From positions 1 to 64,000 of the forward strand of contig JARWZO010000004.1 in NCBI GenBank assembly GCA_029866325.1: DNA of 64,000 nucleotides, given 5' to 3'. How positions within the stretch are numbered: position 1 is the stretch's first letter; every line of letters begins with the position of its first letter. A program made the translations under genes and the position numbers. Below, piece after piece: positions 57,442-63,949 of this stretch. Under the pieces are notes generated by a model. The model was not told the origin of the DNA. It made no database searches and saw nothing but the letters and a program-made list of their open reading frames with translations. The DNA comes from Fluviicola sp. Its GTDB lineage: Bacteria > Bacteroidota > Bacteroidia > Flavobacteriales_D > Crocinitomicaceae.

Positions 57442-60018
57442 ATGATGAATAAGTTGAGATTTTTTTTGGGGATCTTACTTGGAGTTTTTTTTGTTCCGTT
57501 AATTGGTTTAGCCCAATCAAATGATACGTTAAAAAAAAACAGTGATACACTAGCATATCAAGATTTACAAGAATTCGTTGTTTCCTCTTCGCGTATTTCG
57601 GAAAGCCTATTACGCTCTCCGGTGAGCATTGTTCAATTGCAAGCGAATGATGCAAAAAACATGGGGAGTTTATCCTGTTTTGATGCCATTGAAAACACAA
57701 AGGGTGTGCAGGTGATTACGCCAAGTTTAGGTTTTAGGGTGATCAATACCAGGGGATTTTCCAATACCACAAACGTTCGGTTTACACAGTTGGTCGACGG
57801 GATTGATAATCAAGCACCGCATATTGGTGCACCCATTGCCAATTCTTTGGGAGCGAATGATTTGGATATCGATAAAATTGAATTAGTGCCCGGAACAGCA
57901 TCTGCGCTTTATGGGATGAATGCAATCAACGGCTTGGCAAATATCCGAACAAAGGACCCGTTTATACACCAAGGATTCAGTGTGCAACAACTAACCGGTG
58001 TGAATCATCTCGGTAGGTCGGATCAAGATGCAAAACTGTTTAGTCAAACCAACCTGCGTTATGCAAAAGCATACAAATCGAAGTTGGCATTTAAAATCAC
58101 AATTGGATATACTGATGGATCTGACTGGGTAGCAGATGATCGCACAGATCTTGCTCCAACCCTCAATGCCTCTACAGGTCTTCTTGGAACAGACAATCCG
58201 GCGTATGATGAGGTAAATGGTTACGGCAATGAATCATCCAATCGAAAGACATTATCATTAAACGGGAAGAACTATGTTGTTGCTCGTACCGGTTATCTCG
58301 AACGAGAGATAACGGATTATTCCATCAATAATTTTAAAGGTGATATTGGGGTTTATTACCGACCGAAAAAAGGACATGAATTGTCGTTGAGTTACAAAGA
58401 CGCACTTATTAATAGTCAGTATCAGCGGTCGAACAGATTCAGAATGGAGAATTATACTCTACAGCAGTTTTCGTTGGATTATCAATCTGAAATTGTTCAG
58501 ATAAAAGCCTATCTGACGCTAGAAAATACCGGTAAATCCTACAATCTACGCTCCTTAGCTGAAAACATGGATAGATCGTTTAAATCGGATAATCAATGGT
58601 TTTCAGATTACACCACCGCCTTCAACAATGCTACAGCCGGTGGATTGAGTGTAGTAGAAGCACATTCTACTGCCCGAAACAATGCGGATAATGGTCGTTA
58701 TGAACCTGGATCGGCCGGTTTCGAACAGAAAAAAAACGAATTGATTGAAATCAACAATTGGGATTATGGAGCAGCACTTCGCGTAAAAGCAAATCTTGCT
58801 CACACCGAAGGATTGATTCATTGGGATAAGTTGTTTCCTGAATTGTTCACTAAATGGAAAGCGCAATTGTTAAGTGGGTTCGATTATCGCTCTTATTTTA
58901 TTGTGCCCGACGGCAATTATTTTATCAATCCCGGAGATTCTACCCATAACCTTATCTATTCCAAAGCTGGAGGTTTTGTGCAACTCAGTAAAGATTTATG
59001 CAAGAATAAGCTGCGCTTAAGTGCTACTTTACGGGCAGATAAAGCTGATTATTTTGATTGGAAACTAAACCCGAGGTTCACCATTGTTTATTCTCCAACA
59101 GAACTACTTCATGTTCGTTCATCCTATCAAAGTGGATACCGGTTTCCGAGCATTTTTGAAGGTTTTTCAAATGTCAACAGTGGTGGCGTAAAACGTGTCG
59201 GTGGATTAAAAATAATGTCGGATGGAATTTTTGAAAACTCCTATACCAAAGCGTCAATCGATGCTTTTCAAGCGCAAGTGACTACCGATATCAATACAAA
59301 CGGACTTACACAATCACAAGCGATAGAACAAAACAAAGCACTTCTAAAGAAAAATCCGTACACGTATTTGAAACCGGAATACGTTCGTTCCTTTGAAATC
59401 GGGGTACGTGGATTGGCGCTAAAAAAGAGTCTGTTCCTAGATGCGGATTTTTATTTTAACAGCTACGATAACTTTATTGCGCAAGTAGAAGCCAGTGTTC
59501 CAAACACGACAGATCAAGACTCCATACCGACCTACTTGTACACAAAATCGAAGCAAAGCCGTTATCGTCTTTGGACCAACTCGCAAAGTAAAATTTACAG
59601 CTATGGGGCGAGCCTTGGTTTAAAATATGCGTGCAACAGCAACATTTCTATTGCTTTTAATATGACGTATACGAAACTTCAACGAACCGATAATAAAGAC
59701 GGTTTGGAAGATGGATTTAATACTCCGGCTTTAGCTTTCAATAGTACGATTGTAGCTAAGAATATATGGAATAAAATAGGCGGCAGTGTTACAGGTCGTT
59801 ACCAAACCAAATTTGATTATGTTTCATTCTTGGTAAGTGGTGAAGTGCCGGCTTATTGGTCACTTGATGCCCAACTCAATTATACCTTCGATAAACCCGG
59901 AATAATTGCTAAAGCAGGTGCCACCAACTTATTAAATAAGTATTATGCTACGATCCTTGGTGGACCTTCAATCGGAGCGATGTATTATCTTTCGCTTACT
60001 TGGAAATTGAAAGACTAG
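57442..60018 (+). CDS. TonB-dependent receptor without N-terminal extension
   Basis: An 858-residue outer-membrane receptor. A signal peptide (about 1-25, ending GLAQ) leads directly to the plug (about 45-165): VVSSSRISESLLRSPVSIVQL, NTRGFSNTTNVRFTQLVDGIDNQAP and DKIELVPGTASALYGMNAINGLANIRTKDP. The barrel ends AMYYLSLTWKLKD. The absence of a carboxypeptidase-like domain makes it resemble siderophore or vitamin receptors more than SusC proteins. The substrate is unknown; the nearby AraC and MarR genes may control it. Confidence 0.9.
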   Translation: MMNKLRFFLGILLGVFFVPLIGLAQSNDTLKKNSDTLAYQDLQEFVVSSSRISESLLRSPVSIVQLQANDAKNMGSLSCFDAIENTKGVQVITPSLGFRVINTRGFSNTTNVRFTQLVDGIDNQAPHIGAPIANSLGANDLDIDKIELVPGTASALYGMNAINGLANIRTKDPFIHQGFSVQQLTGVNHLGRSDQDAKLFSQTNLRYAKAYKSKLAFKITIGYTDGSDWVADDRTDLAPTLNASTGLLGTDNPAYDEVNGYGNESSNRKTLSLNGKNYVVARTGYLEREITDYSINNFKGDIGVYYRPKKGHELSLSYKDALINSQYQRSNRFRMENYTLQQFSLDYQSEIVQIKAYLTLENTGKSYNLRSLAENMDRSFKSDNQWFSDYTTAFNNATAGGLSVVEAHSTARNNADNGRYEPGSAGFEQKKNELIEINNWDYGAALRVKANLAHTEGLIHWDKLFPELFTKWKAQLLSGFDYRSYFIVPDGNYFINPGDSTHNLIYSKAGGFVQLSKDLCKNKLRLSATLRADKADYFDWKLNPRFTIVYSPTELLHVRSSYQSGYRFPSIFEGFSNVNSGGVKRVGGLKIMSDGIFENSYTKASIDAFQAQVTTDINTNGLTQSQAIEQNKALLKKNPYTYLKPEYVRSFEIGVRGLALKKSLFLDADFYFNSYDNFIAQVEASVPNTTDQDSIPTYLYTKSKQSRYRLWTNSQSKIYSYGASLGLKYACNSNISIAFNMTYTKLQRTDNKDGLEDGFNTPALAFNSTIVAKNIWNKIGGSVTGRYQTKFDYVSFLVSGEVPAYWSLDAQLNYTFDKPGIIAKAGATNLLNKYYATILGGPSIGAMYYLSLTWKLKD

Positions 60019-60571: not shown

Positions 60572-61714
60572 GTGAAGAATACGCTAAAAATCGGGTACAT
60601 ATTTCTAGCTGGTATTGGCATTTTTTTTGTCAATAATATATACGTTTTACTGGCGGTTATTGCCGTACATCTTGTACTTTTTTTCACTATTAAAAACGAC
60701 CAAAAGAATTTTAACTTCCTATACAAAGTAAGGTGGTTCGTGTTACTTATCTTGTTGTTTGATGCATTTACCGGTCCAAATGATTTTGATCTGATTAAAA
60801 TCAAGAAATGGACACTTTCGCTGAGTTACGAAGGAATGCTCAATGGGGCAATCATGTCATGCAAGCTCATTTCAATGTTGTTTATCACCCAAGTGGTGCG
60901 CCTTTCTATGAAAGGAAAGGATTTTGTGAATGGCATGACCGGTTTGGGACTCAGTAGATCGTCTGCTGAAATCATTGACGAAATCATTGTCATTTTAGCC
61001 GATGAAAAAGGACGCGAAAAAAGTCCGGAAAAAGGAAAAGGAAATGGCGGCGGCGGAGGAGGAGGCAAAGGCCGAAATCAAGAAAAACAAGCCTCCGAAA
61101 TCGAAGTGCAAGAAACAGAAGAACAGACCGTGCAATCGAAAGATGTGCTGTTTCGAGGAAAAATAGGGAGTATTCCCAAAAAACTCTTGGCACGAATTAG
61201 TTTTGCCAAGTCGAAATTTGAAAACAACCCCAATGCTGTAATAGCCTCAGCTTCATTAGCTGTAACATTGATCAGAATGGTCAAAATTGCTCCCGGTTTA
61301 CCATTGGCGCCAGGCCATAAAAACATTCTGTTTATTCCGGTGTTTATACAAGGAATTACAAAGTCAGACAAGAAATTTGCGGGAACCCAGATTGGCTTTA
61401 TTTCAGGAATACTGCATTTTTCGTTAGGATTTGGTAAATACGGTCCGCTTGGTATTTTTGAATTTGTGACATTGGGTTTGGTGTTCGATTTGCTCCTCAA
61501 GTTACCGGTCAATCACTCAAAGCTGTGGTTTCTCATGCTTATTGGTGGAATTGGTGGTTTGATTCGCATATCCACAGAAATGCTGATCGCACTGATTCTG
61601 GGTTTACCCGATACATTTTACTTGATTTACATACCGTATGTAATTTCACAAATCGCTTTCGGAGCTGCCTCCGGATTTATTTCAAAAGCAATCATTAATT
61701 CAAAAGACGAATGA
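60572..61714 (+). CDS. Membrane protein resembling a fused ECF-transporter T and S component
   Basis: A 380-residue polytopic protein. The N-terminal half (about 1-142) has four hydrophobic segments and the EcfT/CbiQ-like stretch LSYEGMLNGAIMSCKLISMLFITQVVRLSMKGKDFVNGMTGLGL. A charged cytoplasmic linker (about 143-205) contains seven consecutive Gly (159-165). The C-terminal half (about 220-375) has about six segments and resembles an S component (VTLIRMVKIAPGLPLAPGHKNILFIP, GTQIGFISGILHFSLG). The paired Ala-Arg-Gly coupling motifs of EcfT were not found, and no ECF ATPase gene is in the window. A GTG start is used; stops in frame exclude an earlier one. Its stop overlaps the next gene by four bases. 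Alternative: an unrelated transporter. Confidence 0.65.
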   Translation: MKNTLKIGYIFLAGIGIFFVNNIYVLLAVIAVHLVLFFTIKNDQKNFNFLYKVRWFVLLILLFDAFTGPNDFDLIKIKKWTLSLSYEGMLNGAIMSCKLISMLFITQVVRLSMKGKDFVNGMTGLGLSRSSAEIIDEIIVILADEKGREKSPEKGKGNGGGGGGGKGRNQEKQASEIEVQETEEQTVQSKDVLFRGKIGSIPKKLLARISFAKSKFENNPNAVIASASLAVTLIRMVKIAPGLPLAPGHKNILFIPVFIQGITKSDKKFAGTQIGFISGILHFSLGFGKYGPLGIFEFVTLGLVFDLLLKLPVNHSKLWFLMLIGGIGGLIRISTEMLIALILGLPDTFYLIYIPYVISQIAFGAASGFISKAIINSKDE

Positions 61715-62556
61715 GTCGATTTATTAAAGACACAGAAGATAAGGGAAGAACGCACATGGACTCGCGGTTCATGCGTGAATCGTTGGTTGACAAAGCAGTA
61801 TTGTCTTCAGCAGTGGTAGAACATGAAATAGCCATTCTACCTTACCTAAACATTATCAATGTTGGTGGTAAAAGCATTATAGATCGTGGCAAAGCCGGTG
61901 TGTATCCTGTGCTCGATGAATTGATCGAACTGAAAGGGAAACACAAGTTTGTCGTTGGAGTCACAGGAGGTGCTCGAGTGCGTCATTCAATGGCCATTGG
62001 ACTTGATTTCGGACTACCAACCGGTGGTTTGGCGATGGTAGTTGGAGCTATAGAAGAGCAAAACGCTACCATGATTTATTCCTTGATGGCAAAACATGGA
62101 GCAGTGCGTGTACCAAAAGATCACTACACTGATTTGCCTCATTACCTCGACAACGGAATGATTCCGATTCTTACCTCCAATCCACCACACCACTATTGGG
62201 AAAAACCACCGAAGAAAGGTGTTTTGCCTGAAAGTGGCGCCGATTTTGGAGCGTATATGACTGCCGAAGGTTTGGGAGCCCGTTCAATGATTTTTGTAAA
62301 AGATCAGGATGGACTTTACGACAAAGATCCTGCTCGTCATGCGGATGCGAAACACATTGAACGCATTTCTGCTCAGGAAATCTTAAACGGAGATTTTGAA
62401 GACTTGATCGTAGACAGAATGGTCATTGAAATGTTGGCAAAGGCGCGTCACGTAAAAGAAATCCATATCGTTAACGGCTTAAAGTATGGAAACATTACCA
62501 AAGCGATCAACGGTGAAAATGCAGGTACAATTATCTATAAAGACGAACAAAAATGA
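61711..62556 (+). CDS. Amino acid kinase-fold protein, molybdenum storage protein MosA-like
   Basis: A 281-residue cytoplasmic protein with the amino acid kinase fold: YLNIINVGGKSIIDRGKAGVYPVLDELIEL, VGVTGGARVRHSMAIGLDFGLPTGGLA, a mid-protein TSNPPHHYWEK loop and MIFVKDQDGLYDKDPARH. The order and wording match the molybdenum storage protein subunits of Azotobacter as I recall them (the alpha subunit has a His-rich loop at the same place) better than UMP or aspartate kinase. It overlaps its neighbours on both sides by four bases. A metal-oxide storage role is inference; a nucleotide-binding regulator is possible. Confidence 0.7.
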   Translation: MSRFIKDTEDKGRTHMDSRFMRESLVDKAVLSSAVVEHEIAILPYLNIINVGGKSIIDRGKAGVYPVLDELIELKGKHKFVVGVTGGARVRHSMAIGLDFGLPTGGLAMVVGAIEEQNATMIYSLMAKHGAVRVPKDHYTDLPHYLDNGMIPILTSNPPHHYWEKPPKKGVLPESGADFGAYMTAEGLGARSMIFVKDQDGLYDKDPARHADAKHIERISAQEILNGDFEDLIVDRMVIEMLAKARHVKEIHIVNGLKYGNITKAINGENAGTIIYKDEQK

Positions 62557-63344
62557 GTAATAGAGAAGAGTTGGCCAACTACATGGAAAATTCCATGGAA
62601 GAAGCAGCCTTAAATTATAAGAATGATTTGCGCATCCTGCCTGATGTAAAAGTGATGAAGCTGGGTGGACAAAGTGTGATGGATCGCGGGCGCAAAGCAG
62701 TGTTTCCAATTTTGGACGAGATAGTTGAGAACAGTAAAAAACACGGAATTATCATCACAACCGGTGGTGGTACGCGTGCTCGACATACTTATCAGGTTGC
62801 CATTGACTTAGGAATGCCTGTTGGTGTTTTGGCCGAAATGGGCGGATCGATTACTGTGCAGAATGCGCGTATGTTACAAATGGTAATGGCCAAGCACGGT
62901 GGGATTTTTCTCGATCACTTGGAGTTTGAAAAAATACCCTTGTTTTTGAAGCTAGGTTGCATTCCAATCATGCCGGGTATGCCTCCATACAGCTTTTGGG
63001 AAGACATTCCGGATCATGGTTCCATTCCATTAAATAGAACCGATGTTGGTGCATTTTTTACTGCTGAAGCATTAGGTGCCGATACTGTTTATTACATTAA
63101 AGATGAAAAAGGACTTTACACGGATGATCCCAAAAAGAACCCGGATGCAACCTTTATTCCACGCATTCATGTAGATGAATTGATCGCCAAAGATTTGGGC
63201 GATTTGATTGTTGAACGTGTGGTACTCGATTATTTGAAACGTTCAAAATTTGTGGAACGATTAGTGATAATAAACGGAATGGAAAGCGGAGCCTTAACAA
63301 AAGCATTGAACGGTGAGGAAACCGGAACTGTGATTTACCGTTAA
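62553..63344 (+). CDS. Amino acid kinase-fold protein, molybdenum storage protein MosB-like
   Basis: A 263-residue paralogue of the preceding protein and closer to Azotobacter MosB: RILPDVKVMKLGGQSVMDRGRKAVFPILDEIVE, GGGTRARHTYQVAIDLGMPVGVLAEMG, MPGMPPYSFWE, RTDVGAFFTAEALGAD, IKDEKGLYTDDPKKNPDATFIPRIHVDE and NGMESGALTKALNGEETGTVI all match in order. In Azotobacter MosA and MosB form a hexamer (alpha3 beta3) that holds polyoxomolybdate or tungstate in an ATP-dependent way. A heteromer with the MosA-like protein is likely given their adjacency and overlapping genes. The ligand here is not proven. Confidence 0.75.
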   Translation: MSNREELANYMENSMEEAALNYKNDLRILPDVKVMKLGGQSVMDRGRKAVFPILDEIVENSKKHGIIITTGGGTRARHTYQVAIDLGMPVGVLAEMGGSITVQNARMLQMVMAKHGGIFLDHLEFEKIPLFLKLGCIPIMPGMPPYSFWEDIPDHGSIPLNRTDVGAFFTAEALGADTVYYIKDEKGLYTDDPKKNPDATFIPRIHVDELIAKDLGDLIVERVVLDYLKRSKFVERLVIINGMESGALTKALNGEETGTVIYR

Positions 63345-63388: not shown

Positions 63389-63949
63389 ATGAAAAAACTA
63401 CTTTTACTAGTAATTATTCTTTCAAGCTTTGGTGCAAAAGCTCAAGATTCTACAGTTGTTTATCAGCATGAAAACGTCTATTTTCTCACAACCGTTCCAG
63501 GTTTAGGCGAAAAAAAAGTAGAACGTTTGGCTGTAATGCTTTCAACGTATTTAAGTGCAATAGAAGACAATAAATACGATACGTGGTATGCAAGTTTGTC
63601 TGATAGTACAATTGCTCGCATTAATCCGGCTTTAAATGCGAAGAAATTTCAGACCAAGTTTAATCGCTTTAGAGAATACGGTATTGATTGTGATTCGATT
63701 CGTGTCTTGTCGGTTAAAAAATTACCGAAAGCGTTAGATAATGAAGTCGGAACGCAATACGAGTTGATCATTGACTTTGGGAAGGATTTGACTATTACCA
63801 ACCGAGTTAGTCACGATAGTGTGAAGGCAAGTAAAGATCGAACCAATCCGCGGTTGTTTGGAGTAGATGTGATCGTTTCAGAGAAGGATTTCAAAATTTG
63901 CCTGCATCAATACGAGGTTGAGAAAGAAAACAAGAACAAAAATGACTGA
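63389..63949 (+). CDS. Hypothetical secreted protein
   Basis: A 186-residue exported protein with a signal peptide (about 1-19, ending AKAQ). The mature part looks alpha/beta, with a helix pair (KVERLAVMLSTYLSAIEDNKYDTWYASLS) followed by strands (TQYELIIDFGKDLTITNRV); it might be an NTF2-like fold, but this is a guess. It follows the MosB-like gene by 44 bases and may be the last gene of that operon, ending at the terminator at 63973. Confidence 0.6.
   Translation: MKKLLLLVIILSSFGAKAQDSTVVYQHENVYFLTTVPGLGEKKVERLAVMLSTYLSAIEDNKYDTWYASLSDSTIARINPALNAKKFQTKFNRFREYGIDCDSIRVLSVKKLPKALDNEVGTQYELIIDFGKDLTITNRVSHDSVKASKDRTNPRLFGVDVIVSEKDFKICLHQYEVEKENKNKND

Follow-up and report, generated by a model that had tools for sequence, protein, structure and literature searches.

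Three overlapping genes and their surroundings

Near the end of the window, as we call the whole 64,000-nucleotide stretch of Fluviicola sp. DNA analysed here, three consecutive genes lie on the plus strand. They encode a fusion membrane protein of 380 amino acids with a GTG start (60572..61714), in which a Gly-rich linker connects an EcfT-like half with an S-component half, a Mos-like alpha subunit of 281 amino acids (61711..62556) and a Mos-like beta subunit of 263 amino acids (62553..63344). As indicated by the ORF coordinates, consecutive genes share 4 bases at each junction, just as the original prediction had read them, and it was equally right that no ABC ATPase is encoded among the three genes of the unit itself. 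Upstream of the triplet, a TonB-dependent receptor is encoded at 57442-60018, itself preceded by a MarR-type regulator, and a 186-aa protein with a signal-like start and no Pfam match at 1e-3 follows at 63389-63949, relatives of which are found near the triplet in loci L039 and L040.

The composition of the window fits the rest of its own genome: tetranucleotide correlations between parts of the window and five other stretches of this genome range from 0.946 to 0.986, those of the five stretches among themselves from 0.938 to 0.979, and the value for the related genome G042 is 0.826. Contamination from the same genus may nevertheless be compatible with this match.

To the question of neighbourhood conservation raised by the original prediction, the answer was positive. 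Among 80 loci retrieved by similarity to the third gene (some of them ended by contig edges, L040 and L042 deriving from one MAG and L044 being the locus of G042), the fusion, alpha and beta genes occur together in 53, which cover seven named phyla; since the same three genes adjoin in so many loci, their grouping is more than chance. With the own locus added, gene spacing could be evaluated in 52 of the 54 fusion loci. The closest candidate alpha start is at most 30 bases away from the fusion stop in 41/52 and overlaps by exactly 4 bases in 25/52, by a method which picks the nearest candidate start and is thus biased towards short distances. A reverse search with the fusion gene as query found it in 9 of 235 genomes of one phylum, comprising the seed, two loci already in the set (G551 and G638) and six others, and in five of these six a Mos-like gene directly adjoins the fusion gene. 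In G745, the fusion locus stops at a contig edge and its assembly holds no Mos-like match. Using the membrane protein alone as query against genome contigs and against plasmids was unproductive.

In a sample of 395 genomes of the phylum around the own genome, Mos-like genes were detected at E 1e-20 in the own genome only, and of 99 relatives four carry a Mos-like pair (the own genome G000, G042, G097 and G021). No fusion gene stands beside the MoSto pairs of G097, G021 or Azospirillum. Eight alpha/beta pairs were retrieved without a fusion gene in the retrieved stretch; two or more of these lie at a contig end. Four loci from Myxococcota (L080, L085, L108 and L113) hold alpha/beta pairs with no fusion gene in the retrieved DNA and share other neighbours with one another. 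Upstream of the fusion gene, L047 (6916-7794) and L048 (6869-7741) each carry a third Mos-like gene. Overall, the parts of the unit and their conservation are well supported.

A predicted ECF-type membrane core in a single chain

Analysed alone, the window protein gives a weak CbiQ signal over its N-terminal half (residues 1-149, 60572..61018), with TIGR02454 at E 6.1e-5, which is under the cut-off, and PF02361 at E 0.015; in Pfam, a VirB3 match that is likewise below cut-off (E 8e-4) outranks the latter. Alignments of the fusion family comprised 44 members, the others being truncated at contig ends or unusually long, apart from one alignment of full-length members that holds 45. At this family level, TIGR02454 was matched by 41 and PF02361 by 24 of the 44 members (E 1e-3), and a profile built from all 44 matched the EcfT structures 4huq, 4hzu and 5d3m with E-values of 8e-9 to 1.8e-7, reaching EcfT residue ~162 of 280, which bears out the EcfT-like N-terminal half that had been proposed. 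VirB3, seen in one of 44 members at E 1e-3 and below cut-off, was rejected as an identity for the membrane protein. Beyond EcfT, the profile search of the PDB returned nothing useful, with two matches to Tet4 variants (2.4e-5) falling on the linker region. All 45 full-length members in the alignment retain the T half. AlphaFold modelled the fusion protein with a mean pLDDT of 85 and a pTM of 0.82, and in a Foldseek search with the whole model EcfT chains and one S component ranked top by probability, at weak E-values (best 0.22).

The C-terminal half (residues 216-380, 61217..61711), for which an S-component fold had been anticipated, was modelled alone as six helices (pLDDT 88.9, pTM 0.84), and its five best Foldseek matches are all S components, with probabilities of 0.96-1.00 and TM-scores of 0.50-0.74, at E-values of only 0.23-0.37. 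Eleven residues are invariant in the 44 members, namely P244, G248 and K250 of the motif PGLPLAPGHK (residues 241-250, 61292..61321), P256, G275, G279, G286, G291, D306, R332 (61565..61567) and G364. A search for an AXXXA pattern in S helix 1 found residues 222 and 226 both to be A, G or S in 35/44 members, the window protein reading AxxxS. No Pfam family fits this half, with weak matches to Trep_Strep in 2/44 members and to DUF4345 in 1/44. On sequence and modelling grounds, the first gene encodes an ECF transporter's membrane core as a single polypeptide.

Between the two halves, a Gly-rich linker of low pLDDT (residues 150-188, 61019..61135) stands where the first Arg-motif region of EcfT would be. 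In an alignment with five canonical T proteins, the linker of the fusion family occupies the position of this first motif, and opposite the second Arg motif the family shows a gap. After the linker, R or K is found at position 195 in 33/45 members, G196 in 41/45 and Asp at the third place in 29/45, the motif reading R195-G196-K197 in the window protein (61154..61162) and ARG in some members. In triplet genomes, PF02361 is matched only to about model position 142 unless a second, canonical gene is present; a canonical CbiQ match extending to about model position 210 was found in 7/37 other triplet genomes, and no PF02361 match at all in 9/37. Judging from these alignments, the fusion T half has likely lost ATPase docking; the loss is likely rather than proven because the conserved basic-Gly-Asp motif may be a remnant of an EcfT Arg motif. 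The original prediction had regarded the missing ATPase as an anomaly. It is indeed missing, although less oddly than had been claimed, because part of the region on which an ATPase would dock is missing from the T half.

The second and third genes encode relatives of the molybdenum storage protein

The best matches of the second and third gene products to MoSto (E 1.5e-59 and 2.6e-70, respectively) are far stronger than those to UMP kinase structures (9.5e-6 and 1.9e-7), which makes both of them relatives of MoSto and not of UMP kinase; UMP or aspartate kinases were rejected as their identity. The further step of reading them as alpha and beta subunits of MoSto held in part: the pair does not appear to be simply MosA and MosB.

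The lysine of the first kinase motif was scored over 155 Mos-like rows and 4 UMP kinases. It is present in 54/54 triplet beta subunits (K36 in the window, 62658-62660) and in 0/56 triplet alpha subunits (N50 in its place in the window, 61858-61860), whereas classic MosA (4/4) and classic MosB (4/4) both have it. It was also found in 17/17 single-gene proteins and, in loci without a fusion gene, in 12/12 beta-type or duplicate proteins and in 0/8 alpha subunits of pairs. PDB chain 6ris_B, which we take to be an engineered variant, has a Ser at this place in the alignment. In a tree of 114 of the 159 rows, from which near-copies had been dropped by locus, the triplet alpha subunits form one group (98/94) and classic MosA groups with MosB in another (98/78). 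Although the best tree separates them, an AU test did not reject a placement of the triplet alpha subunits with MosA (p 0.227).

Molybdate and tungstate uptake genes often adjoin the unit

Within the retrieved DNA, modA, modB or tupA genes are present in 41 of the 53 fusion loci compared with 2 of the 27 loci without the fusion (Fisher p 1.3e-9, a test which ignores the relatedness of loci). This contrast is partly one of lineage, as the loci without the fusion come mostly from Bacillota and Chloroflexota. Among fusion loci, such genes occur in 19/25 from Myxococcota, 6/7 from Bacteroidota, 6/6 from Pseudomonadota, 4/6 from Planctomycetota, 1/1 each from Gemmatimonadota, Glassiibacteriota and Nitrospirota, and 3/7 without a named phylum. 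The own genome carries modABC immediately beyond the window end, on the minus strand (about 64019-66100 in window numbering); ModA (121.9 bits, cut-off 62.5) and ModB (196.5 bits, cut-off 182.6) score over their cut-offs, and the ModC-like ATPase under its own (195 bits, cut-off 285). Some loci carry both sets in a single run of genes, in the order modA-alpha-beta-modB-ATPase-fusion in L052 and beta-alpha-fusion-tupA-modB/tupB-like permease-ATPase in L088. Molybdate and/or tungstate as substrate, which the original prediction had named along with the alternative of another ion, is supported by these neighbouring genes, which were out of its sight.

In Bacillota and Chloroflexota, single Mos-like genes were also observed near genes for molybdenum cofactor synthesis (L082 and L107). 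In L107 (4001-13849), the single gene is flanked by a moaA-moaC-moaE-moeA-mog run on one side and by an ECF A-A-T fusion with a PF09819 S protein on the other, and in L101 (5447-10744) a single Mos-like gene shares its stretch with MobB, a canonical EcfT and two EcfA-like ATPases. MOT1-type molybdate transporters (PF16983) were found near the single Mos-like genes of L078, L087 and L118, the three tested, and by clustering L102 and L111 hold relatives.

ECF ATPases and molybdenum use in triplet genomes

A survey of the own genome for orphan ECF ATPases, as suggested at the outset, used the single model TIGR04520 and gave 17 matches at E 1e-30, none of them over cut-off, the best scoring 157 of 315 bits. 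The same genome has no CbiQ match and no canonical EcfT. ATPases encoded beside three triplets scored best with models of ModC (two) and PstB/sulfate/WtpC (one), and not with ECF models.

Despite modABC and the triplet, and in an assembly rated 100% complete, the own genome gave no MoaA or MoeA match. MoaA was found in 0/14 searched genomes of the own genus and in 34/98 relatives. A search for molybdopterin oxidoreductases in the own genome returned none over cut-off; the one sub-cut-off PF00384 match is a 1106-aa protein, presumably ActB of alternative complex III. Given that MoeA is present in 37/38 other triplet genomes searched (G042 and G494 being one MAG), this lack of MoaA and MoeA is a puzzle. 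An assembly gap could hide one moa-moe cluster.

A possible import-and-store unit and its alternatives

The reading we favour, at a probability of roughly 45%, is that the three genes form a membrane-linked unit that imports and stores molybdate and/or tungstate. The alpha/beta pair would form a cage like the (alpha beta)3 of MoSto, in which ATP hydrolysis would fall to the beta subunits and the shaping or holding of the deposit to the alpha subunits. The S half may take up the oxyanion via its invariant Lys and Arg, and the T half with the linker would hold the cage docked at the cytoplasmic side of the membrane, at the place of an ABC ATPase, so that ATP-driven deposition would pull the anion in and trap it. 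ModABC or TupABC would provide high-affinity uptake in parallel. PMC6448029 states that loading of MoSto requires ATP hydrolysis and that tungsten is also accepted. In the triplet, we infer, the cage would spend ATP to drive import. Counting against an import-and-store role, ModABC could do all of the import alone.

Each part of the unit resembles a known system and departs from it. MoSto of Azotobacter vinelandii is encoded by a homologous tandem alpha/beta gene pair with full-length similarity, and its ATP-site motifs are kept in the triplet beta-like subunit; in contrast to MoSto, the kinase lysine is absent from the triplet alpha, and so, for the most part, is the RT of RTDxG, and the triplet pair sits elsewhere in the best tree and is coupled to a membrane gene. 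ECF transporters, composed of EcfT, an S component and EcfA/EcfA', share the T half by sequence and the S half by structure, whereas the triplet has both in one chain with a Gly-rich linker, an altered docking region and no EcfA in the unit. BioY and BtuM offer S-component folds able to work without an ECF ATPase, but in the triplet a T half and storage proteins accompany the S fold. ModABC and TupABC share the probable substrate and, in some loci, a single gene run; they are, however, ordinary ABC importers of another family. In the accessible part of PMC11980592, Tub/Mop proteins are described as cytoplasmic stores of Mo and W oxyanions built from TOBE domains, unlike the kinase fold of the triplet pair, and no membrane partner is mentioned there.

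Several other explanations have to be weighed. The fusion might be an ATP-independent facilitator like solitary BioY or BtuM, the cage merely lowering the free anion inside without contact; solitary S components transporting without an ECF module are reported in PMC11109136, and the own genome lacks an ECF ATPase over cut-off. This would leave the retention of the T half in all 45 full-length members and the frequent gene overlaps unexplained, and we regard it as somewhat unlikely. Alternatively, an ABC ATPase, either a distant EcfA or a neighbouring ModC/TupC, might drive the fusion by docking on the basic-Gly-Asp motif. The conservation of R/K195 and G196, the ARG found in some members, the ModC- or Tup-type ATPases that are frequent neighbours and the canonical CbiQ genes of 7/37 triplet genomes are compatible with this, but the second Arg motif is absent, EcfA is lacking over cut-off in the own genome and the neighbouring ATPases tested resemble ModC or PstB/sulfate/WtpC rather than ECF models, making such a drive unlikely.

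That the fusion instead acts as an outlet or sensor, releasing excess or stored anion or reporting its level, seems improbable to us. ModABC already gives high-affinity import, and the S-component fold also occurs in sensor kinases and MreD (PMC11109136); against it, the alignment reveals no signalling domain, and S helix 1 has the small-xxx-small pattern of docking S components at 222/226 in 35/44 members. The lack of MoaA, MoeA and a molybdopterin oxidoreductase over cut-off in the own genome might point to an oxyanion other than molybdate or tungstate, which we consider very unlikely with Mod/Tup neighbours in 41/53 fusion loci and MoeA in nearly all other triplet genomes. An accidental grouping of ordinary nucleotide or amino-acid kinases, to which the AA_kinase fold of both proteins would lend itself, is barely credible in view of MoSto matches at 1e-59 and 1e-70, far beyond those to UMP kinase, and of a triplet spread over seven named phyla. 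None of the contrary outcomes named in advance came true, in that the membrane protein does not lack EcfT and S folds as predicted here, the kinases do not fall within the UMP/aspartate kinases and the neighbourhood is not lost.

Returning to import coupled to storage, a bolder form of it would describe an ECF-descended transporter whose ABC ATPases have been swapped for a docked, ATP-hydrolysing cage of the amino-acid-kinase type. Molybdate or tungstate, drawn in via the S half, would pass directly into the solid-state store of a heteromer that arose separately from MosA/MosB and assigns catalysis to beta and deposition to alpha; in this full form we hold the proposal to be doubtful. The accessible parts of the literature searched, which covers few subscription journals, contain no description of the triplet.

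Taken together, a MoSto-like pair with a membrane partner lies beside Mo/W uptake genes in many phyla. If the coupling proposed here is true, storage would be part of import, and the ECF fold would be drivable by a non-ABC engine. The triplet operons offer a ready set for testing how cells load metal-oxide stores.
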